Assembly: GCA_944367495.1 (NCBI GenBank)
Contig: CALVWP010000054.1
Span: 1 to 33,654, forward strand
Direction: 5' to 3'
Length of the DNA stretch: 33,654 nucleotides
DNA from: an uncultured Bacilli bacterium
Lineage (GTDB): Bacteria > Bacillota_I > Bacilli_A > RF39 > UBA660
The notes beneath the pieces were generated by a model. It was not told the DNA's origin and did not search any database. It was given only the letters and a program-made list of their open reading frames with translations. This document shows, in pieces, positions 3,965-33,654 of this stretch. Each line of letters opens with the position of its first letter. The stretch's first letter is position 1. A program made the translations under genes and the position numbers.

Positions 3965-5335
3965 ATGGAAGTTACAAACGATATTAATTTTAAAATTTTT
4001 AGAGAATACGATATTAGAGGTATTTATGGCATTGATATTGATGAGAATGTAAGTTATACAATTGGTAAAGCTTTTGGTAGTTATGTAAGAGAACTTGGTG
4101 AAAGCAAGGTTATATTGGGGCACGATAATAGAGATAGTTATAAAGTTATTTTTCCGGCTCTTACTAAAGGTATTTTAGATAGTGGGGTTAATGTTCTTAA
4201 TTTGGGGTTAGTGACAACTCCGATGCACAATTTTGCGAAAATTTATTATGATGTAAATGCGGGTATTATGGTGACAGCCAGTCATAATTCTAAAGAGTAT
4301 AATGGCTTTAAGATTTCTTTAAATAAAGAAGAATCTTTATATGGAGAAAAATTGCAAGATTTTAGACGTTATTTAGAGTGTTATGATTTTAAAGATGGAG
4401 AAGGTAGTGTTTTTGATGAGGATGTATTTCCGGCTTATTTAGATAATTTAAAACAATCTTTAAATTTTGGTGATAGAAAAGTTAAAGCAGTAGTAGATTG
4501 TGGTAATGGAACTGCCAGTATTTTTATGGCTAATGTTTTAAAAGAATTTAATATTGATTATAAGCTTTTGTATTGTGATAGTGATTCTAGTTTTCCAAAT
4601 CATATTCCCGATCCAGCTGTTAAAAACAATTTACGTGATTTGGGTATGGAAGTACGAAAGTTAGATTATGATTTAGGTTTAGCTGTAGATGGTGATGCTG
4701 ACAGATGTGGACTCGTTTTAGAAAATGGTGAGTTTGTATCAGCTGATATGATTATGATTTTATTTTATAGAGAGTTAGCTGATCGGATGGAAGTTAGAAA
4801 AGGAGTGTTTGATGTAAAATGCTCTAAAAGTTTAATTGATGAAATTGAAAAGTTAGATTTAAAACCTTGTATGAATAGAACAGGAAGTGTATATTGTCGT
4901 AATTATGTGATTGATAATAATTTAGATTTTGGTGGAGAGTATTCTGGTCATTTATTTTTTAGAGATAAATATTTAGGTTTTGATGATGGAATTTATGGAA
5001 TTCTGAGAATTATCGAGTTATTATCACATACTGATAAAAAAATAAGCGAGTTATTTGAGGGGGTTAATCATTATTTTTCAACGGAAGAGTTAAAAATAAA
5101 AGTTACTGATGATAATAAATTTGATATTGTAGCTGGAGTTATTAGATATGCGAAAGCTAAACAATATAATTTTTCTTTAATCGACGGTATTAGGATTACT
5201 TTTGATGATGGATGGGCTTTAGTAAGAGCTAGTAATACTGGACCTGATTTAACAGTTAGATTTGAAGCAGAGACAGAAAAAAGATTAAAAGAGATTCAAG
5301 AAGAGTTTACTAAAGTTATTAATAATTTGAAATAA
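3965..5335 (+). CDS. Phosphomannomutase/phosphoglucomutase (alpha-D-phosphohexomutase)
   Basis: This 456-residue cytoplasmic enzyme interconverts hexose 1-phosphate and 6-phosphate, supplying sugar nucleotides for envelope glycans. All four domain signatures are visible. The phosphoserine loop TASHN is at 104-108 (Ser106). The magnesium loop DGDADR is at 242-247. The sugar-specificity loop GEYSGH is at 324-329. The phosphate-binding RASNT motif lies near the C-terminus. The EYSGH form and the overall length fit the AlgC/ManB-PMM/PGM branch rather than GlmM, which is shorter in its third loop and normally carries GEQSGH. Substrate preference between mannose and glucose cannot be read from the sequence. 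The gene has its own promoter and is monocistronic, followed by tRNA-Thr. Confidence 0.9.
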   Translation: MEVTNDINFKIFREYDIRGIYGIDIDENVSYTIGKAFGSYVRELGESKVILGHDNRDSYKVIFPALTKGILDSGVNVLNLGLVTTPMHNFAKIYYDVNAGIMVTASHNSKEYNGFKISLNKEESLYGEKLQDFRRYLECYDFKDGEGSVFDEDVFPAYLDNLKQSLNFGDRKVKAVVDCGNGTASIFMANVLKEFNIDYKLLYCDSDSSFPNHIPDPAVKNNLRDLGMEVRKLDYDLGLAVDGDADRCGLVLENGEFVSADMIMILFYRELADRMEVRKGVFDVKCSKSLIDEIEKLDLKPCMNRTGSVYCRNYVIDNNLDFGGEYSGHLFFRDKYLGFDDGIYGILRIIELLSHTDKKISELFEGVNHYFSTEELKIKVTDDNKFDIVAGVIRYAKAKQYNFSLIDGIRITFDDGWALVRASNTGPDLTVRFEAETEKRLKEIQEEFTKVINNLK

Positions 5336-5360
5336 TATTTGAATTATATGATATTTATGG

Positions 5361-5389
5361 TTGAAAAACAGGTATAAATATTATATAAT
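5361..5389 (+). promoter_or_regulatory. Promoter of tRNA-Thr
   Basis: TTGAAA at 5361-5366 and TATAAT at 5384-5389 have an exact 17-base spacer. The -10 ends eight bases before the tRNA 5' end, as expected for a stable-RNA promoter. Confidence 0.75.
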
Positions 5390-5397
5390 TTTTATAT

Positions 5398-5471
5398 GCC
5401 GCAATAGTATAAAGGTATTACGAGGCCATGGTAAGGCTTTAATCGGCGTTCAATTCGCCGTTGCGGCACCA
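5398..5471 (+). tRNA. tRNA-Thr (anticodon GGU), CCA encoded
   Basis: A full cloverleaf can be drawn. The acceptor stem pairs GCCGCAA (5398-5404) with TTGCGGC (5461-5467), discriminator A at 5468, and CCA is encoded at 5469-5471. The D stem is short (GTA with TAC), with GG in the loop at 5414-5415. The anticodon stem 5423-5427 pairs with 5435-5439 including one G-T, and the loop ATGGTAA places GGT (5430-5432) as anticodon, reading ACC and ACU threonine codons. The T arm is CGGCG, TTCAATT, CGCCG. The variable loop has only four bases, and the D arm looks like that of many tRNA-Gly genes, but the anticodon is clear. Confidence 0.9.
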
Positions 5472-5483
5472 TTTTGTAGTTAT

Positions 5484-5505
5484 CCCTTGTTTTTTCAAGG
5501 GTTTT
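5484..5505 (+). terminator. Terminator of tRNA-Thr
   Basis: Perfect 6-bp stem CCCTTG (5484-5489) with CAAGGG (5496-5501), T6 loop and a TTTT tail, 12 bases after the encoded CCA. Confidence 0.75.
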
Positions 5506-5524
5506 ATTATATTTTTTATATGTT

Positions 5525-5550
5525 AAAACCGTTGAATAACAACGGTTTTT
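5525..5550. terminator. Bidirectional terminator between tRNA-Thr and the minus-strand genes
   Basis: A perfect 10-bp stem (5525-5534 with 5540-5549) around an AATAA loop has T runs on both strands. It can stop transcription from the tRNA side and from the convergent membrane-protein gene that ends at 5579. Confidence 0.8.
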
Positions 5551-5578
5551 AGTATAAAAGCTATAATCCTTAAAGCAA

Positions 5579-6112
5579 TTAAACTACATAATAAATTTTT
5601 ATAACTACTTTTGTATTTGGTAGATAATATATAATTGCTTTTATATTTTTATTTTGTGCTTTTTTCCCATTTTGCAAGCTTGCTTTATTTAATCTAAAGG
5701 TATATTGTTTTTCTTTGTTTTCTCCATTTATTTCATAAAATGTAGAGTTTTCAAAAACGTCATCTATTTCGAAGCTTATATTGTTAAGGGTTATTTTTTG
5801 AGGATTAAATAAATATTTAATATCTAAAATTGGAGCTTTTAGTAGAAAAAATGTAATTAGACAGATAATGATGATGGCTATAATTTTTAAATATTTAGCT
5901 TTTTTTGTTTTTTGAAAAAATCGAATAATGAGTAAAATTACTATGATAAGGCATATTATTCTTATTAAAGTAAATTTTATAAATCCTATTATGCCTTCTT
6001 CGAGATAACCGTTTGAAAGTAAAAATAATAATAGTGGAATTATAATGAAAAATGCGGTGAGAGATATGCAGAATAAAATAAAATATAATTTAACTTTTTT
6101 ATTATTTTTCAT
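5579..6112 (-). CDS. Hypothetical membrane protein
   Basis: This 177-residue protein has three strong hydrophobic segments in its first half (about 9-31, 47-65 and 74-92). A soluble, presumably extracellular C-terminal domain of about 80 residues follows, with alternating beta-strand-like stretches. I recognise no family. It is the second gene of a two-gene minus-strand unit, 28 bases after the CmpB-family gene, and probably shares its transcript. No function is assigned. Confidence 0.7.
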   Translation of the reverse strand: MKNNKKVKLYFILFCISLTAFFIIIPLLLFLLSNGYLEEGIIGFIKFTLIRIICLIIVILLIIRFFQKTKKAKYLKIIAIIIICLITFFLLKAPILDIKYLFNPQKITLNNISFEIDDVFENSTFYEINGENKEKQYTFRLNKASLQNGKKAQNKNIKAIIYYLPNTKVVIKIYYVV

Positions 6113-6140
6113 AATTAATTATTGTTCCTTTCTATTACTT

Positions 6141-6761
6141 TTAAAAATATAAATATTTTAATCCTAGTTTTTTATAGATGGAAGATGCTCTTGGTAGAGA
6201 AAATAGATTTGTGAATATTAAATTATATAATTCGTCAGCTAAAAAGATAAAACATAATGTGTAGCTAATAATTAAAAATGTTTTTTTATTTAATTTATTT
6301 GCAAGATAAAAACAAAAAGGAACGATAATATACATTAGTATAAGACTCATAATACCAAAAACTAAAACACTTCTTAGACAGACATAGCCATTTATATTAC
6401 CAAAGTTTAAAATTTCTTGATTATAGTCCCAACATTTTACATCATTAAAGTGATCCATATACCAACCACCAATATATTCTAATATTCCTGAGGCGATAAT
6501 GCTGATAAGGAAGATATAAATGGGGTGTTTTCTTTTTTTATAAGTTAAAAGGAATATGGCTACAGCTCCGATAGCATATATGTTAATCCAAGGTAAAAAA
6601 TTACCACCTCTATAGTAAAATTGGGTCATACCACTGTTGAAAAAATAAAATATGAATTCATATAACCAACCAGATATGCCTGAAATGACAATTATTAGAC
6701 AGACAATACCAATTAGTGTTAGTTTATCAAATTTGTAGTCATTATTTAAATAATCTTTCAT
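6141..6761 (-). CDS. CmpB-family membrane protein (putative ABC-transporter type IV, PF06541-like)
   Basis: This 206-residue polytopic membrane protein has about five hydrophobic segments. Hallmarks of the CmpB/PF06541 family are visible: GWLYEFIFYF near residues 26-35, a short loop ending in LPWINIYAIGA, an intramembrane Glu in LEYIGGWYMDHF, and the WDYN plus NINGYVCLRS segment. The family is widespread in Firmicutes and named a putative ABC transporter component, but no ATPase partner is adjacent and the biochemical role is not established. The start ATG at 6761 is preceded by AAGGAG on the minus strand. Confidence 0.8.
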   Translation of the reverse strand: MKDYLNNDYKFDKLTLIGIVCLIIVISGISGWLYEFIFYFFNSGMTQFYYRGGNFLPWINIYAIGAVAIFLLTYKKRKHPIYIFLISIIASGILEYIGGWYMDHFNDVKCWDYNQEILNFGNINGYVCLRSVLVFGIMSLILMYIIVPFCFYLANKLNKKTFLIISYTLCFIFLADELYNLIFTNLFSLPRASSIYKKLGLKYLYF

Positions 6762-6822
6762 ATAGCGAACTCCTTACACATATTGTATCAAAAAAATTTT
6801 ATAAAAGCTATGCTTTAAATTA

Positions 6823-6851
6823 TTGATAAACTATGATATAGTGGTTATAGA
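6823..6851 (+). promoter_or_regulatory. Promoter of the corA-like gene
   Basis: TTGATA at 6823-6828 and TATAGA at 6846-6851 with a 17-base spacer. The distance to the start codon is only about 20 bases, so there is no room for an M-box or other large riboswitch. Confidence 0.55.
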
Positions 6852-6871
6852 AAATATAAGAGGGTGTATGT

Positions 6872-7813
6872 ATGTTAAAAATGTTTAATTATGGCTTTGA
6901 TAAGAAAATAAAAATGATCGATGGTTTTGAAGAGGGTAGCTGGATTGATTTGGTTAATCCAACTAAAGAGGAAATTCAAAAAGTTTCAGAAATTTGTGGT
7001 ATTAGTGCATCGGTTATTTTACAAGTTTTAGTTGAAAAAGAATTACCTAGAATCAAGCAGTTTGATGGAGGTATTTTAACGGTGATTGATATTCCTTATA
7101 TGAAAGATAAAAATATTAAAAATAAGTATGTCACATTTCCGCTTGGAATTATTATTTGTGATAATGGTTTTATTTTAACTGTATCTTTAATAGAATATGA
7201 TTTTTTAAATAAATTTAAATTAAATCAGATTGGTGATGTCGATATTAGTAAAAAAGTGAAATTTTTATTACAGATTATTTTAAGTTCGGCAGGTGTTTAT
7301 TTACAAAACCTCGATTTAATTGAAGAAGATATTCAAAAAGTAGAAAAGAGTACTTATCATTCTACTAACAATAAGCAATTAATTAATTTTTTAAATATTC
7401 AAAAAACTTTAGTTTATTTTATTACTTCTTTAAAAGCGAATGAAGCAGTTTTAGAAAGATTACAAAGAGAAGATGTGATAGCTTTATCTAAAGATGAACG
7501 TGTTTTTTTAGAAGATGTAATTACAGAAAACAAACAGTGCATTGAAACGAGTGTGGTTACCAGAGAAATTTTGTCATCTACGATAGATGCTTATGGGACT
7601 ATAATTTCCAATAATTTAAACGTGATAATGAAGTTTTTAACAGGAATAACGATTGTATTTTCAATTCCAACAATGATAGCATCTTTTTTAGGAATGAATG
7701 TACCGTTAGGAGTTGTTGGAGAAAGTGATTTTTCATTTTTAATTATTTGCATGGTTTCTTTTATTGTATCATTTATATTAGCTTGTTGGTTGAACAAGAA
7801 AAACATGCTTTAA
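6872..7813 (+). CDS. corA: CorA-family divalent cation transporter
   Basis: This 313-residue protein matches the CorA family in length and order. A cytoplasmic alpha/beta domain (about 1-130) is followed by long helices (about 135-250) and two C-terminal membrane segments (about 254-272 and 287-305). The selectivity-filter motif GMN is at 274-276, right after the first membrane helix. The family makes pentameric channels for magnesium and sometimes cobalt or nickel. The conserved MPE that often follows GMN is not present (NVPLG instead), as in the shorter Firmicute branch. The ATG at 6872 is in frame with the domain; a nearby ATG at 6868 is not. Confidence 0.9.
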   Translation: MLKMFNYGFDKKIKMIDGFEEGSWIDLVNPTKEEIQKVSEICGISASVILQVLVEKELPRIKQFDGGILTVIDIPYMKDKNIKNKYVTFPLGIIICDNGFILTVSLIEYDFLNKFKLNQIGDVDISKKVKFLLQIILSSAGVYLQNLDLIEEDIQKVEKSTYHSTNNKQLINFLNIQKTLVYFITSLKANEAVLERLQREDVIALSKDERVFLEDVITENKQCIETSVVTREILSSTIDAYGTIISNNLNVIMKFLTGITIVFSIPTMIASFLGMNVPLGVVGESDFSFLIICMVSFIVSFILACWLNKKNML

Positions 7814-7828
7814 AAATTACATTAAAGA

Positions 7829-7837
7829 TGGTATAAT
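7829..7837 (+). promoter_or_regulatory. Extended -10 promoter before a small ORF
   Basis: TGG followed by TATAAT (7832-7837) makes an extended -10 element just after the corA stop. No clear -35 is seen (TTTAAA at 7809). Transcription would start close to the AAGGAG site of the small ORF. Confidence 0.45.
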
Positions 7838-7858
7838 TTAGCTAAAAGGAGTCTTTTT

Positions 7859-7978
7859 ATGACAAGTGAATATTTTATGAAAAAATTTGTTAATAATTAT
7901 GAATTAAGTGATGGGAAAAAAGTAATTATGATTGTTGATTTTAAAGATATTCAAAATGTTAAAGGAAGAGTAAGATAA
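7859..7978 (+). CDS. Small hypothetical protein, 39 residues
   Basis: A 40-codon frame starts at ATG 7859 with an AAGGAG binding site at 7846-7851 and ideal 7-base spacing. It stops at TAA 7976-7978, inside the base of a terminator hairpin. The peptide starts MTSEYFMKKF, is basic (Lys/Arg-rich) and soluble, and has a VIMIVDFKDI stretch that could form a beta strand. An extended -10 promoter, a good binding site and an immediate terminator make it a complete small transcription unit. I do not recognise the family. A truncated remnant of a larger gene is possible. Confidence 0.5.
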   Translation: MTSEYFMKKFVNNYELSDGKKVIMIVDFKDIQNVKGRVR

Positions 7979-8003
7979 AAATCGGGGATTACCTGATTTT
8001 TTT
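7977..8003 (+). terminator. Terminator after the small ORF
   Basis: A 10-bp stem (7977-7986 with 7992-8001, one G-T pair) with a short loop and a T7 run. It overlaps the stop codon of the 39-residue ORF. Confidence 0.65.
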
Positions 8004-8061
8004 GCTTTTTGAAAAAGGAAATGCGATAATTTTGTCGTATGTTATATATAGAGGTGAAAAA

Positions 8062-8757
8062 ATGGAAATTTTAAATGTGAAAAATTTGAGCAAAAAATTT
8101 GGTGAAGGTGAGAATGAGTTTTTTGCTTTAAACAGTATAAGTATGAAAGTTAATAAAGGCGAATTTGTGGCCATTGTTGGTAAAAGTGGTTCGGGTAAAA
8201 GTACTTTATTGAATTTGTTAGGAGGATTGGATACACCTAGTTTTGGCAACGTAATTATTAATAATCAAAATATTTATAAAATGTCTGATAAGGAACTTAC
8301 GGTTTTTAGAAGAAAAAATATAGGAATTGTTTTTCAATTTTATAATTTAGTTCCAGCACTGACAGTTAAAGAAAATATTTTATTGCCAGCTTTATTTGAT
8401 GGAAAGATAGTTAGTGATGACAAGTTTAACGATTTAATTAAATCGCTTGGAATTAAAGGTAAAGAAAAATTTTTTCCAAATGATTTATCTGGTGGACAGC
8501 AGCAGAGAGTGGCACTTGGAAGGGCACTTATAAACAAACCAAAGATATTATTAGCCGATGAACCAACTGGGAATTTAGATAGCCGGAGTAGTAATCAAAT
8601 TATGCGTCTTTTGGAGATGTATAATAAAAAATATAATCAGACAATTATTATGGTAACTCATGATATGACCTTAGCGCAGCGGGCTAGCCGAATAATTACA
8701 ATGAAGGATGGGAAAATAATAAAGGATGTTAAGCATCAGATATGTAAAAAAAAATAA
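8062..8757 (+). CDS. ABC transporter ATP-binding protein, MacB/LolD type
   Basis: This 231-residue ATPase has every ABC motif: Walker A GKSGSGKST (about 40-48), Q-loop Gln92, signature LSGGQQQR (142-149), Walker B ILLADE (162-167) with EPTGNLD, and the switch His200 in VTHD. The EPTGNLD form and a partner FtsX permease place it in the MacB/LolD/BceA group, which powers mechanotransmission or export of lipids, peptides or antibiotics at the membrane. I chose ATG 8062, preceded by GAGGTGA, over upstream in-frame codons. The gene overlaps the permease gene by 32 bases, so the two are translationally coupled. Confidence 0.93.
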   Translation: MEILNVKNLSKKFGEGENEFFALNSISMKVNKGEFVAIVGKSGSGKSTLLNLLGGLDTPSFGNVIINNQNIYKMSDKELTVFRRKNIGIVFQFYNLVPALTVKENILLPALFDGKIVSDDKFNDLIKSLGIKGKEKFFPNDLSGGQQQRVALGRALINKPKILLADEPTGNLDSRSSNQIMRLLEMYNKKYNQTIIMVTHDMTLAQRASRIITMKDGKIIKDVKHQICKKK

Positions 8758-10609
8758 AAAACAGGCATTTACCATAATTACTAGTATTATTTTAGCTAGT
8801 ATTTTGCTTTTTAGTGTGGGAATTTTGTTTTCATCTTTTAGAGAATATTTAATTAAGCAAACACTTAAAGAGGCTGATTTTCATGTTAGAATATCTGGAG
8901 ATTTAGAAGATATTTCTAAAAATAATATTGTGCGGATGAAACTAATAGATGGTGAATATTATATTAAGTTTAAAGATATTTTTAAAACTTATGACTTTAC
9001 TGATGAAATATGTGATACAAATATTTGTCAAAAAACAGTTTATAATTATAAGCTTTTATCTTTATATGGTATTGGTGAAAATAATTATTTATCTTTATTT
9101 AAAAATTTAATTATTTTGATTGTTTTTGTTTTAGCACTTTCGTCTTTTTTTATTATATATAATTCTTTTTCTTTAATTTTAAGTAAAAAACAGCATGATA
9201 TAGCTTTGTTTAAAGCGATCGGAAGCAGTAATTCAAATTTATATAAAATATTTTTTTTAGAAGGTGTAATTTATGCAGTGCTTGGTATAGGATTGGGTTT
9301 TGGTTTAAGTCTTTTAACAAGCTATAGCATAATTTATTTTATAAATAATATTTTAAGTGAAGTTTTTAGTGCAGAGCTTAGTTTATATATATATTTGCCT
9401 TTTGTTTTAATACCTTTAATTTTTATAGTTTTAATTATTTTTTTAGCTATAATATTTCCAATATTTAAGATAAAGAAATATAAAATGATGGAAGCGGTTA
9501 GAAAAGAAAATAATTATGAATTAAAAGGTGGGGTATTTAAAAGCTTTGTTTTAAATTATGCGTACGTTAATTATCAGCGAAATAAAAAAAAGTATAGAGG
9601 AATTATTATGTGTATATTTATATCAGCTTTACTTTTTAATAGTTTTATGAGATTTGGTGATTATACAGCTACAATAATTCAAAAATATGTTACTATACCT
9701 AAGTATGATGTGATGATTATCATGAACGATAGTAATATGCTTAAAAAGTTAGTAGATAAATTTAAACCAATAAAAAAAACAGTATACCGTTTTGGTTATA
9801 AAGATTTTAATGGTTATAAAGTGCTAGTGACTGATTTAGGCAAAAATGAAGTTATAAATAAGGTTCGGGAAATTAGTTTTGAGGACAAAGCTTTGATAAA
9901 AGATTCTAAACATTTTGATGATTTAGATAGTATTATTTTGGATGGAAAAAAAATAATGGTGAATCTTACTGAAAAAGTGCCATTTGGTTTTGAAAATGAA
10001 CTGTCAAGCAAACAGATTATACTTAATTTAGATAAAGCGCTTTTTGATGAAATTATTTTGGAATATGAAAACGCGGCTTTAATTAAAACAGATAAAAACA
10101 AAATAGATGAAATGATTAAGAGTTATGCTTTAGAAAATGATATTGATGTAAGTTATAACAATGTTAAGAAGTCTTTTGAACTTATAAATAGTTTTATTTT
10201 ATTAATTAAAATTTTTATTTATTTTTGTGTATTTATCACTTTGATTATTGCAATATGTGCAATATTTAATATTATGTCTGCTAGTATTCAATTTAGGAAA
10301 AGAGAATTTGCTAGTTTGAAAGTGCTGGGACTTGATAATTTTAAAATTAGTTTATGTTTATTTTTAGAAAGTTTAATTGTAGTTTTGAAAGGTATTTTTT
10401 ATGTTTTTCCATTTATTCTTTTGATTAGTAGTGGTCTTTATAAAAATATCGGTAATTATTTTCAAATAGATTTGGGAATAATGGATTATAAAATTTTTGT
10501 CTTTAGCTTTTTAATATGTTTTTGCGCTACAAATATTTGTATGAATTTGTCACATTTGAATTTATATAGAAAACCTTTAATTTTAAATATTAAAGGGGAA
10601 AATCTTTGA
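8726..10609 (+). CDS. FtsX-like ABC transporter permease
   Basis: This 627-residue permease partners the preceding ATPase. It starts with the family-typical basic stretch and first membrane helix (about 16-36). Two FtsX domains follow. The first covers about 130-250 with three helices. The second is at the C-terminus (about 485-615), again with three helices, and a further helix lies near 288-305. Extracellular loops of about 90 and 170 residues separate them; the first contains a cysteine pair in DEICDTNICQ. The architecture fits the large-loop FtsX exporters rather than FtsX of cell division. No two-component system is adjacent, which argues mildly against a Bce-type peptide resistance module. 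Substrate unknown. Confidence 0.87.
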   Translation: MLSIRYVKKNKKQAFTIITSIILASILLFSVGILFSSFREYLIKQTLKEADFHVRISGDLEDISKNNIVRMKLIDGEYYIKFKDIFKTYDFTDEICDTNICQKTVYNYKLLSLYGIGENNYLSLFKNLIILIVFVLALSSFFIIYNSFSLILSKKQHDIALFKAIGSSNSNLYKIFFLEGVIYAVLGIGLGFGLSLLTSYSIIYFINNILSEVFSAELSLYIYLPFVLIPLIFIVLIIFLAIIFPIFKIKKYKMMEAVRKENNYELKGGVFKSFVLNYAYVNYQRNKKKYRGIIMCIFISALLFNSFMRFGDYTATIIQKYVTIPKYDVMIIMNDSNMLKKLVDKFKPIKKTVYRFGYKDFNGYKVLVTDLGKNEVINKVREISFEDKALIKDSKHFDDLDSIILDGKKIMVNLTEKVPFGFENELSSKQIILNLDKALFDEIILEYENAALIKTDKNKIDEMIKSYALENDIDVSYNNVKKSFELINSFILLIKIFIYFCVFITLIIAICAIFNIMSASIQFRKREFASLKVLGLDNFKISLCLFLESLIVVLKGIFYVFPFILLISSGLYKNIGNYFQIDLGIMDYKIFVFSFLICFCATNICMNLSHLNLYRKPLILNIKGENL

Positions 10610-22086: not shown

Positions 22087-23358
22087 ATGCATAAAAGATT
22101 AAGTAGGACGCAGAGAAATTATATAATAATAGGGCTGTGTGCAGTACTGTTAATTATGACTGTAGGTTATGCGGCCTTTCAAAGTCAACTTAAAATAACT
22201 GGTACATCTAATATAGGAAGTAATTTCTTAGCTAGAATAACTGGTATACAAAGTGATGTACAAAGTGGGAGTGCAAGTGATGCAACAACCCCATCGTATA
22301 CAGATACAACCGCTACTTTTAAAACAAATTTAGTATCACCCGGAGATTCGATGAAATATGATATAACAGTAGCTAATGAGGGAAATATTGATGCTGTTTT
22401 AAATAGTATAAAAGTAAGTAATTCAAATAATGAAGCTATAACGTTTGAGACCAGTGGAATAGAAGAGGGAGATGAATTAAAAGCATCAGAGACTGATATA
22501 TTAACGGTAATCGTAACTTATAACCCAAGTATTACAAGTCAACCAGAAATTACTACTGCCACAATTACTGTAACTTTAGATTATGGACAAAGTAATGGAA
22601 CAGTAACCCCACCAACACCATCTGGAATTACTTCAGATGATTTAAAAGCACTAGCTGTTACCGAGGGAGACGGGTTATATCAAGATGAATATGAAAGTGG
22701 TAGATTCATTTATAAAGGTGCCAATCCAAATAACTATATAACTTTTAACAATGAAACATGGCGAATACTTTCTATAGAAGCCGATGGAAGAATAAAAATA
22801 ATGCGAAATGAAAGTATAGGAAATAGAGCATTTGATTCAGGAGGAAGTAATGCATGGGAAACATCAGATATAAAGACATATTTAAATGGAGAGTATTTAG
22901 AGACTATAACAGTAAATAAAGATAAAATAGTACCTAGTACATGGAGTATAGGGGGAGTAACTTCTGATAATAATGATTTAGCCGGTCAAATAACAGCTGA
23001 AAATGGAACGCAATCACAGACAGCCAGTGTAGGATTAATTACAGCCAGTGAGTATTTAAGGGCTAATACCAATAAGGAACAATGTGGAAGTATTAGTTTA
23101 AATGATGATAACTATAGTACATGTAAAACAACGAATTGGTTATTTAAGGGAGACCATTATTGGACAATATCGCCTACTGTCAGTTATTCTGGCAATGTCT
23201 TTCTTGTGTTCAGCAACGGCAAAATGTATAGCACTCTCAACGCGCATTTTACTTATGCGGTTCTTCCCGCCATTACTCTAAGCTCTGATATCAGCTTGAG
23301 TGGAAGTGGAGAAGCTGGAGATCCATTTGTATTATCACCAATTGGGGATAATATATAA
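22087..23358 (+). CDS. SipW-type exported surface protein with variable-looking C-terminal domain
   Basis: This 423-residue protein has a short basic N-terminus, a membrane/signal segment (about 12-28; LLIMTVGYAAF) of the SipW-dependent type, and a TasA-like beta domain (about 35-175). That domain has TATFKTNLVSPGDSMKYDI and NEGNIDAVLNSIKV, shared with the protein at 32391. After a TPPTPSG linker comes a second domain (about 195-410) starting GDGLYQDEYESGRFIY and NNETWRILSIE. It ends in a WTISPTVSYSGNV stretch and AVLPAITL, where related proteins usually have a GVRP-type phrase. The C-terminal domain looks like the DUF6273 / C-type-lectin-like tail of many gut Firmicute surface proteins. Codon use changes sharply at 23170-23301. 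A cysteine pair lies in QCGSISLNDDNYSTC. No LPXTG-like sorting signal. ATG 22087 follows AGTAGGG. Confidence 0.75.
   Translation: MHKRLSRTQRNYIIIGLCAVLLIMTVGYAAFQSQLKITGTSNIGSNFLARITGIQSDVQSGSASDATTPSYTDTTATFKTNLVSPGDSMKYDITVANEGNIDAVLNSIKVSNSNNEAITFETSGIEEGDELKASETDILTVIVTYNPSITSQPEITTATITVTLDYGQSNGTVTPPTPSGITSDDLKALAVTEGDGLYQDEYESGRFIYKGANPNNYITFNNETWRILSIEADGRIKIMRNESIGNRAFDSGGSNAWETSDIKTYLNGEYLETITVNKDKIVPSTWSIGGVTSDNNDLAGQITAENGTQSQTASVGLITASEYLRANTNKEQCGSISLNDDNYSTCKTTNWLFKGDHYWTISPTVSYSGNVFLVFSNGKMYSTLNAHFTYAVLPAITLSSDISLSGSGEAGDPFVLSPIGDNI
23170..23301 (+). other. C-rich, NNY-codon segment: candidate diversified (DGR-type) variable region
   Basis: This 3' segment of the surface-protein gene differs from its flanks. 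In the 43 codons from 23173 only two end in A (AAA, CTA), while the codons before and after use A-ending forms heavily. By hand count 34 of about 130 bases are C, against 7 of the 60 bases at 23041-23100. Codons such as GTC, TAT, TTT, CTT, TTC, CTC and CAT sit where AAY codons would give an Asn-rich template. The segment ends in AVLPAI, like the ends of C-type-lectin variable repeats. No reverse transcriptase or template repeat lies in the window. Confidence 0.45.
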
Positions 23359-23391
23359 TAGTGTCATAAATACATGTAATGAGAAAAATAA

Positions 23392-23814: not shown

Positions 23815-24000
23815 ATGAATAACAAAGGTCAAGCCTTAGTAGAATATTTATTAATCATAGCAGTAGTTAGTGTAATTGTTGTTAGTTTAGTAAAGCTATT
23901 AGGTGGTTATCTTCAAGACTCAATGACTAAGACATCTTGCAAACTTATAGATAAAGAATATGTTGAAGGGTCTGAACCCGGCAAGGGAACTTGTCAATAA
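23815..24000 (+). CDS. Flp/TadE-like small pilin
   Basis: This 61-residue protein starts MNNKGQALVEYLLIIAVVSV. It has a short positive leader ending in Gly, a Gln-Ala-Leu-Val-Glu-Tyr motif with Glu at +5 after cleavage, and then a single hydrophobic helix. This is the class III prepilin signature of Flp and Tad pilins, cut by a prepilin peptidase. The short outer tail carries a cysteine pair (CKLIDKEY and GKGTC), which could form a disulfide. No Tad ATPase, TadB/C or peptidase gene is in the window. ATG 23815 fits the GGAGGG site better than the upstream in-frame GTG. Confidence 0.75.
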   Translation: MNNKGQALVEYLLIIAVVSVIVVSLVKLLGGYLQDSMTKTSCKLIDKEYVEGSEPGKGTCQ

Positions 24001-27508: not shown

Positions 27509-27544
27509 TCTTAAAATGTGATATTATTATTATAGGTGATAGGT

Positions 27545-27907
27545 ATGAAAAAGGGTTTTACTTTGGCGGAATTACTTGGAGTGATAGCAATACTTGGAAT
27601 TATTGCTTTAATTACGGTACCGGCTATTAATAGATCGCTTTCTCAAAGCAGGGAGGAGTTATATAAAACACAGATCGAACAGTTAGAAAAAGGAGCTCAA
27701 GATTATTATACAGAGCATTTGGATGAAATGCCGTCAGTAGTTGGAGAAGATGCTTGTAAAACGATAGATGAACTTCAAAAGAATGGTTATTTACCTTTAG
27801 ATATTAAAAATCCTAAAACAGATAAAGTATTTCCCCTTACGACAAAAGTATGTGTTTTGAAAAAAACAGCAATGGAATACGATTATGAGGTGAGGGAAAG
27901 TGAATAA
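27545..27907 (+). CDS. Type IV prepilin-like protein (1)
   Basis: This 120-residue protein begins MKKGFTLAELLGVIAILGII, the type IV prepilin N-methylation motif: cut after Gly4, Phe at +1, Glu at +5, and then a long hydrophobic helix. A globular outer domain of about 90 residues has one cysteine pair (EDACKT and TKVCVL). It is probably a minor pilin or pseudopilin. ATG 27545 follows an AGGTGATAGGT site. The last eight bases overlap the next prepilin gene. I see no prepilin peptidase, ATPase or secretin-like gene in the window. Confidence 0.85.
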   Translation: MKKGFTLAELLGVIAILGIIALITVPAINRSLSQSREELYKTQIEQLEKGAQDYYTEHLDEMPSVVGEDACKTIDELQKNGYLPLDIKNPKTDKVFPLTTKVCVLKKTAMEYDYEVRESE

Positions 27908-28334
27908 AAAAGGTTTTACGTTAATTGAATTATTAGCAGTGATTGCGATTATTGCGGTGATTGCGGTGATTACAGTGCCGATTATTACAAATGTAATTCA
28001 AACTACTAGAGAAAATGCTTTTAAAGATACAGCTTATGGTTTAGTTCAAGCAGCTGGAACATACCAAGCGGAAAGACAGGCTTTGAAAGAAGATGCTACG
28101 TTACTTATTAATTATCAAACAAGTTCAGAAAGTGATAAAGAATTATTGAGAACTAATGGTCAGCTTCCTGATGCGGGTGAGCTTATGATAGATGATAATG
28201 GTAAGGTTACTTTGGCTTTGTGGAGTGATGATGTACATGTTTGTGTTGTTAAAGAAGCAAGTTCAAAGGAAGTTAAGATAAACGAAAATATTACTGAAGC
28301 GACAAGCTGTGTGATTGCAAATATAAATAAATAA
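27900..28334 (+). CDS. Type IV prepilin-like protein (2)
   Basis: This 144-residue protein begins MNKKGFTLIELLAVIAIIAV with the standard prepilin cleavage and methylation site. The hydrophobic core repeats VIAIIAVIAVITVP. The outer domain has a cysteine pair (DDVHVCVVK and ATSCVIA) near the C-terminus. Start GTG 27900 follows GAGGTGAGG; the overlap with the previous prepilin gene suggests coupled translation. Together the pair probably forms part of a pilus or secretion pseudopilus. Confidence 0.87.
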   Translation: MNKKGFTLIELLAVIAIIAVIAVITVPIITNVIQTTRENAFKDTAYGLVQAAGTYQAERQALKEDATLLINYQTSSESDKELLRTNGQLPDAGELMIDDNGKVTLALWSDDVHVCVVKEASSKEVKINENITEATSCVIANINK

Positions 28335-32365: not shown

Positions 32366-32390
32366 AAATTTAGAGTAAGGAATGATATTC

Positions 32391-32996
32391 ATGAGCGAGA
32401 AAGAAAATAAAAATGTCAATGAAGATGAAATTGAAGTTTTAGAAATTTGGGAACCTAAAGCTGATGAGATTATAGATGCTAAAGATCGCCATATCAAAAT
32501 GTCTAAACAATCAACTAATAGAATTGTTATTACTTTAGTAGCTTTAGCGGCATTTTTGATAATGTGGTATTCGACTTTTGCTCAACCACTTGCTTTTAAT
32601 GCACGAACAGCTGAAACTGGTTCTTGGGATATACGTTTTACTGATATGTATGTCGATAAAGTTGTGGGGTTTGCGAAAGAACTTACAAAACCATCATATA
32701 CGGCACAGACAGCTACTTTTTCAGTATCTTTAACAGCACCCGGAGATAGTATAACTTATGATTTAACAATTACAAATAATGGAAATTTAGATGTTAAAGT
32801 TGAAAGTATATATATTATTCCAGAAGATAAAAATGATGATACAATTTTATATTCGGTAGATAAAATTCATGTGGGTGATGAACTTGATGCGGGTGAGTCT
32901 ACACATATGACAGTATCAGCAACTTATAATAAAACGACTGCTCAGGAAAAAGTTTCAAGCAGTGTAACAGTTTTAATTAATTATGAACAAAACTAA
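32391..32996 (+). CDS. SipW/TasA-like membrane-anchored surface protein
   Basis: This 201-residue protein has an acidic cytoplasmic tail of about 45 residues (EIEVLEIWEPKADEI), one membrane segment (about 46-66) and a beta domain (about 75-200). The phrases TATFSVSLTAPGDSITYDL and NNGNLDVKVESIYI match the domain of the protein at 22087. It resembles TasA/CalY-like proteins and Ig-like modules that follow SipW-type signals, but the long charged tail before the helix is unusual for a cleaved signal. ATG 32391 fits the AAGG site better than ATG 32382. It faces the sortase B gene across a terminator, yet has no sorting motif. Confidence 0.75.
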   Translation: MSEKENKNVNEDEIEVLEIWEPKADEIIDAKDRHIKMSKQSTNRIVITLVALAAFLIMWYSTFAQPLAFNARTAETGSWDIRFTDMYVDKVVGFAKELTKPSYTAQTATFSVSLTAPGDSITYDLTITNNGNLDVKVESIYIIPEDKNDDTILYSVDKIHVGDELDAGESTHMTVSATYNKTTAQEKVSSSVTVLINYEQN

Positions 32997-33027
32997 AACA
33001 CTTTATGGTAAATGCCATAAAGTGTTT
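32996..33027. terminator. Bidirectional terminator
   Basis: A perfect 13-bp stem (32996-33008 with 33015-33027) with a 6-base loop. The T-rich tail is better on the minus strand, at the end of sortase B. Confidence 0.8.
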
Positions 33028-33654
33028 ATCTTTTATCTAGTTTAATTAATTTTGCATGAATTACTAATCTAGTAGTTCCGGCAACATCTTTACAGGTTGA
33101 TAAGGTTAAAATTTTATCGTTTTCATTTAACGTTCCACTAAAGTTAATTTCACTTCGGTCTTTTATAGTTTGAATAAAAGTTTTGAACTGACTATCAGAA
33201 AATTTAGTTGTTATATAATAGCTTTCTGGCTTGATAGTGTAAATACTGACGATTTGCCATAAAGTGTTTTCAGTTGGGGTAGAAAATTTTATAATGTGAT
33301 TATTTTTATTACCATACCATGATTTGTTTAAAACTTTTTTAAGACTACCAAAGACAGTTTGATTAGATCTACTATGACCATAGATGACGGTGTTTTTATC
33401 AAAGTTAGTCATGTTGTTACGGTAATCAGCAAATACCCAACCAGCTGAGTTTTTAGATTTATCGAAAGCGTGGTTTAAGTAAAATGAATTATCGTTACTT
33501 TGAACGACAGGGTAATTGACGTTGGTACCATTTACTTTGATAAAGCCAACTGTGTCACTATTTTTCTTTTTAAGTTCATTAAAATCGACAGACATCATGT
33601 CCATTTTGATATAATCCCAGTAATCATCTGATTTATCTTCTGGTGGATTTATAT
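33026..33654 (-). CDS. srtB: Class B sortase, 5' end outside the window
   Basis: Sortase B attaches surface proteins to the wall by transpeptidation. The frame runs open to the end of the window, with DDYWDYIKMDMMSVDFNELKK reading past the internal ATG at 33604, the usual start region of class B sortases, so the true start and the membrane anchor are off the window. Catalytic His is in YGHSRSN, Cys in LSTCKD and Arg in TTRLVIHAK. The class B insert is present between His and Cys. The substrate is not identified here. Confidence 0.93.
   Translation of the reverse strand, partial: INPPEDKSDDYWDYIKMDMMSVDFNELKKKNSDTVGFIKVNGTNVNYPVVQSNDNSFYLNHAFDKSKNSAGWVFADYRNNMTNFDKNTVIYGHSRSNQTVFGSLKKVLNKSWYGNKNNHIIKFSTPTENTLWQIVSIYTIKPESYYITTKFSDSQFKTFIQTIKDRSEINFSGTLNENDKILTLSTCKDVAGTTRLVIHAKLIKLDKR

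Follow-up and report, generated by a model that had tools for sequence, protein, structure and literature searches.

A DUF6273 surface-protein gene with a C-rich 3′ segment

The window analysed here is a stretch of 33,654 nucleotides from an uncultured Bacilli bacterium (contig CALVWP010000054.1). It carries a gene assigned as a target of a diversity-generating retroelement (DGR), with a variable repeat (VR) matching a template repeat (TR) that lies outside the window, on contig C5 of this genome:

22087-23355, plus strand: DGR target gene encoding a 423-residue exported protein (signal/TM-like N-terminus, Ig-like middle with a weak Pfam match, C-terminal DUF6273)
22795-23283, plus strand: DUF6273 domain, residues 237-399, with the VR at its C-terminal end (Pfam E 2.7e-8)
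23170-23272, plus strand: VR, matching the TR at C5:46224-46344, with one extra codon in the AAC run
23257-23272, plus strand: candidate IMH-like block GCGGTTCTTCCCGCCA, from the VR/TR alignment, with a role suggested by known DGRs
23275-23301, plus strand: candidate hairpin ACTCTAAGCT...AGCTTGAGT directly 3′ of the VR, nearly invariant in 11 of 11 VR genes

Attention had been drawn to the segment 23170-23301, which is in frame with the open reading frame 22087-23355 and comprises 44 codons. Two of these codons end in A, whereas A is the last base in 169 of the gene's other 379 codons (Fisher p 2e-8), and the C content is 25.8% against 13.2% (p 3e-4). The hand counts of an earlier, sequence-only reading (two A-ending codons, C about a quarter) were thus right. 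The segment ends in AVLPAITL, which reads AVRPAITL in two paralogues, and the VR lies in the last 62 codons of the gene.

The N-terminal signal/TM-like stretch of the protein was judged by eye. The structure model of the target protein (mean pLDDT 81.5, 21 homologues used) matched phage DUF6273 proteins and the N-terminal region of an IgA peptidase (Z 15.8) in the structure comparison, followed almost exclusively by C-type lectins at Z 5-6, values that according to the tool are not decisive alone below Z 8. This comparison supports the earlier proposal of a C-type-lectin-like domain at the 3′ end of an exported protein; the model supports a predicted C-type-lectin-like fold for this DUF6273 domain, as in known DGR targets. 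In gut phages, DUF6273 domains with a C-type-lectin-like fold have been described as DGR targets (PMC10743442), and in Faecalibacterium prophages DUF6273 is reported as a DGR target domain, with variable regions at its C-terminal end (PMC11792537). The targets presumably have a surface-binding function.

Among matches of E 1e-100 or better in sister species, rpmA and the target gene were joined as in the window in none. Elsewhere in the window, translations were named by eye as a pilin-like short gene, pseudopilin-like proteins, a TasA/camelysin-type-like protein and a sortase-like protein (23816-24000, 27536-28334, 32382-32996 and 33026-33604).

An AAY-rich template and eleven variable repeats

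Positions 23130-23360 were used as the query against the genome to which the window belongs (64 contigs totalling 1.02 Mb, 73% complete), which gave eleven further matches with 72-82% identity, along with one short match on contig C8. Ten of the eleven are other genes with the same 3′ end, and the remaining one, C5:46231-46339, is the template. It lies about 180 bp downstream of a target gene on C5, outside any target gene, and its full extent is C5:46224-46344 (about 10225-10345 on the minus strand of locus L025). Translated in the VR frame, the TR reads SPNASNSNNVFNVNSNGNLNNNNANNTNAVLPA. The Asn-rich template that had been postulated elsewhere in the genome therefore exists, with AAY codons where the window VR has other NNY codons. 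A second TR was not found in the window genome, from whose 73% complete assembly another TR or RT may be missing.

Compared with the TR, the eleven VRs differ at 211 of 372 template adenines and at 50 of 725 other positions (odds ratio 17.7, p about 1e-73). The p-value overstates the evidence, since the paralogues have a common ancestry and their counts are partly dependent; within the same genes, the difference between A and non-A columns is unaffected by this. Changes of template adenines led to G in 109 cases, to T in 63 and to C in 39. Mismatches in the window VR alone are concentrated at template adenines, as predicted (15 of 34 A sites changed versus 5 of 66 others, p 3.4e-5). Divergence among the paralogues amounts to 0.64 in TR-adenine columns and 0.12 in the remaining VR columns; outside the VR, it is 0.24 over the 60 nt upstream and 0.02 over the 30 nt downstream.

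The whole of 23170-23301 had been proposed as the variable region. Its first part, 23170-23272, indeed aligns to the TR, whereas 23273-23301 lies downstream of the TR match and is nearly invariant among the paralogues. The block GCGGTTCTTCCCGCCA, common to VR and TR and free of A up to its last base, is a candidate for an IMH-like role by analogy with known DGRs. The palindrome at 23275-23301 gave folding z-scores of -1.96 and -1.46; phage BPP-1 reportedly has a hairpin downstream of its VR, and the palindrome may have a corresponding role in the DGR described here.

Relative to the TR, the AAC run has one codon more in the window VR and in the VR on contig C1 and one codon fewer in C57a; the BPP-1 RT has been suggested to slip in steps of three within AAC repeats (PMC12875486). 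Three of the five non-A changes in the window VR are C-to-T and recur in other VRs, and the TR of a sister species (G024) has T at one of these C-to-T positions. Given its five non-A differences and the extra codon, the window VR was probably not last written from exactly the C5 TR, and we infer an older or lost TR allele as its last source.

A chromosomal DGR cassette with an interrupted reverse transcriptase

The TR belongs to a cassette on contig C5 with the order target gene-TR-MutS_I-like-Avd-RT, which lies on the minus strand of locus L025:

10510-11787, minus strand: cassette target gene
about 10225-10345, minus strand: TR
9539-9943, minus strand: MutS_I-like protein (Pfam 1.4e-7)
9198-9542, minus strand: Avd (phrog_3206 'Avd protein of DGR', 5.9e-16; bAvd, 1.9e-12)
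8525-9232, minus strand: N-terminal half of the reverse transcriptase (RT), an RVT_1 half
4657-5082, minus strand: C-terminal half of the RT, an RVT_1 half

The two RT halves can be joined into an open frame of 377 residues with IGNMTSQ and YMDD, in which the first stretch corresponds to (I/V/L)GxxxSQ, the motif characterising DGR RTs (PMC3521204), and the second to YxDD. A DGR RT encoded outside the window had been anticipated, and one with the DGR motif is present beside Avd; this RT, however, is interrupted by a mobile element, and the cassette as assembled lacks an intact RT. The halves are separated by 3,445 bp (L025 about 5092-8536) containing three consecutive tyrosine recombinase genes of the Phage_integrase family (PF00589), which encode 408, 320 and 338 residues. 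The element has 91-bp inverted repeats with 97.8% identity. The RT is broken between GLPIG and NMTSQ, within the (I/V/L)GxxxSQ motif, and the empty junction, with the flanks joined, would read CCTATAGGGAATATGACTAG. A terminal part of this element also stands at the beginning of contig C43 (L026 about 1-142), where the C-terminal half of a different RT follows it. Two RTs of the window genome thus have the element inserted at an identical codon.

A ribosomal protein L17-like gene (named by eye) and other chromosomal genes adjoin the C5 cassette. Since the L17-like gene lies just beyond it, we regard the DGR as chromosomal and rejected a phage origin in favour of a cellular one. Rfam models gave no hit above a gathering score in the cassette or in the two target loci scanned. 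Within the genus, a related RT is found in 33 of 44 genomes and TR/VR-like matches in 18 genomes; other species have similar TR/VR pairs and also intact RTs.

The small MutS domain I-like protein between TR and Avd has similar frames, recognised by eye, in loci L128, L133, L134 and L136. The 136-bp spacer upstream of the TR (L025 about 10364-10499) is repeated with 96% identity behind two remote target genes (G000:C29:17227-17362 and G000:C5:13653-13789), which suggests that target genes were duplicated from the cassette along with the spacer. We had considered these two copies as a second TR and rejected them when they turned out not to be one.

Origin and present state of the variable repeats

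In the proposed mechanism, the TR RNA from C5 would be copied by the DGR RT with Avd, random bases being placed opposite template adenines. The mutated cDNA would then replace the VR at the 3′ end of the DUF6273 surface-protein genes, presumably by retrohoming, and one face of the C-type-lectin-like domain would be diversified. With the C5 RT interrupted, diversification should have stopped in cis, to resume only once the element is lost by excision or a different RT of the genome acts in trans.

The target genes are paralogues with about 85% DNA identity, as would also be expected from ordinary paralogue divergence, positive selection or gene conversion in a surface-protein family without any DGR. 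We consider such an origin extremely improbable, as the changes fall at template-A positions (odds ratio 18) with third codon positions conserved, the AAY-rich TR stands outside any target gene beside Avd and RT genes, and the TR/VR pairs of other species argue that A-specificity extends beyond this genome. A serious, if somewhat doubtful, alternative is that the DGR wrote the VR in the past and left it as a fossil, with the surface repertoire frozen and drifting ever since the RT was interrupted. The split of the RT at a core motif and the five non-A changes of the window VR fit such a history, as does the nearly identical VR peptide FTVGYDGIVGRNFANA of C57b (G000:C57, L033 12479-12687) and C8 (L036 2151-2345), two VRs that are frozen since their duplication. 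On the other hand, six VRs have only 0-2 non-A differences over 66 sites, which argues for recent diversification; the C5 RT halves are intact and joinable; and a further RT, on contig C33, has no defect in its covered part.

The C33 RT, with its own cassette beyond the contig end, might also rewrite the VRs in trans from the C5 template, a route that we regard as unlikely. Its frame is open over 292 residues and includes IGNVVSQ and YQDD, but it shares only 63-66% identity with the C5 RT halves, and the contig stops short of its N-terminus and any TR. RT, Avd and TR normally form a matched set, which also counts against this route. Returning to the DGR reading, we hold 23170-23272 to be almost certainly a real DGR variable region, and as such it is one of at least eleven remote VRs that belong to a DGR on the chromosome of an uncultured Bacilli-type bacterium.

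The DGR itself belongs to a known type, and its remote targets are unusually numerous. It shares with the DUF6273 DGRs of gut phages, the tentaclins (PMC10743442) and those of Faecalibacterium prophages (PMC11792537), the VR in DUF6273 and the adenine-specific TR/VR pattern, and with the tentaclins also the predicted C-type-lectin-like DUF6273 fold. Unlike these phage systems, it is chromosomal, has at least 11 scattered remote targets and an extra MutS_I-like gene, and its RT is interrupted. The use of one TR for many similar target genes is shared with a published DGR, which differs in its domain family and host and has fewer targets than the at least 11 found here in a 73% complete genome. 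At about 1.0 Mb, the assembled genome is very small, and at least eleven of its genes are devoted to one hypermutation system.

A recombinase clade inserted at one codon of DGR reverse transcriptases

The first recombinase was searched in a collection with one genome per species, and relatives with at least 46% identity were examined. Among these relatives, eight loci contain the N- and C-terminal RT halves, and the break falls at an identical codon in each; L135 has the C-terminal RT half only, L131 a six-base flank that fits the RT only, and L137 ends inside the element. Same-codon RT insertions outside the window genome comprise L127-L130 and L132-L136, in either orientation. Eleven insertions were placed when C5 and C43 of the window genome are counted, with each locus taken once (G024 is L127, G023 is L132 and G100, by its sequence, is L136). 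The RT-inserted rows and L137 form one group in the recombinase tree (support 100/97). More distant recombinase relatives had no RT match at E 1e-4 in their adjoining DNA, a negative result that is weak for short contigs. G007:C11, with a weak inverted-repeat match only, was rejected as an RT insertion, as its ORFs include neither an RT nor a trio. Among viral contigs, the recombinase had two weak matches only, with 25-42% identity over parts.

The interrupted RTs differ widely, and several loci contain Avd-like or Asn-rich TR-like frames (by eye). The motif of the L129 RT is IGNLTAQ; the AQ variant of the SQ motif has also been reported for DGRs (PMC3521204). The C5 and G024 elements are 99.8% identical over 3,430 bp but lie in opposite orientations relative to the RT, while the RT DNA flanking them is about 80-87% identical, an indirect sign of mobility. 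Separate recent insertions would best explain these sequences; an inversion within an older shared insertion combined with exchange would explain them less well.

A 6-bp repeat of the form NATNGG is present at both flanks, exact in seven of nine loci and with 1-2 mismatches in L127 and L128. If one repeat copy is removed and the flanks are joined, an open RT of 332-393 residues results in eight of the nine loci, L132 being decayed (155 residues), and excision could therefore restore those eight RTs. By its sequence context, the element looks like a mobile element specialised on DGR RTs. More speculatively, and in our view improbably, the clade might act as a reversible off-switch, in which integration would freeze the surface repertoire and precise excision would restore hypermutation. 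Nothing linking DGRs with recombinases in trio came up in the open-access literature, where related work was covered at the level of titles and abstracts, nor did the papers searched bring up a dedicated on/off switch for DGR diversification. The analysis reveals a mobile-element clade with the DGR RT as the only target seen. Should excision prove to be regulated, the element would serve DGR diversification as a natural on/off control; otherwise it would be a DGR-specific parasite, and either outcome would represent a new interaction of two kinds of mobile or domesticated element.

Tn554-type trios are the general model for recombinase trios. The element resembles RIT elements in having three consecutive tyrosine recombinase genes between inverted repeats. 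Compared by length, these repeats differ from the 34-bp terminal inverted repeats of published RITs (91 bp here; PMC10214605), and the present clade was seen only in DGR-type RT genes wherever a flank was readable. A further difference is an extra palindrome of the TTATGTAAANNTTTACATAA type beyond the inverted repeat (e.g., L025 about 5092-5118), which is found on the RT 3′ side in all insertions, irrespective of how the recombinase genes are oriented.
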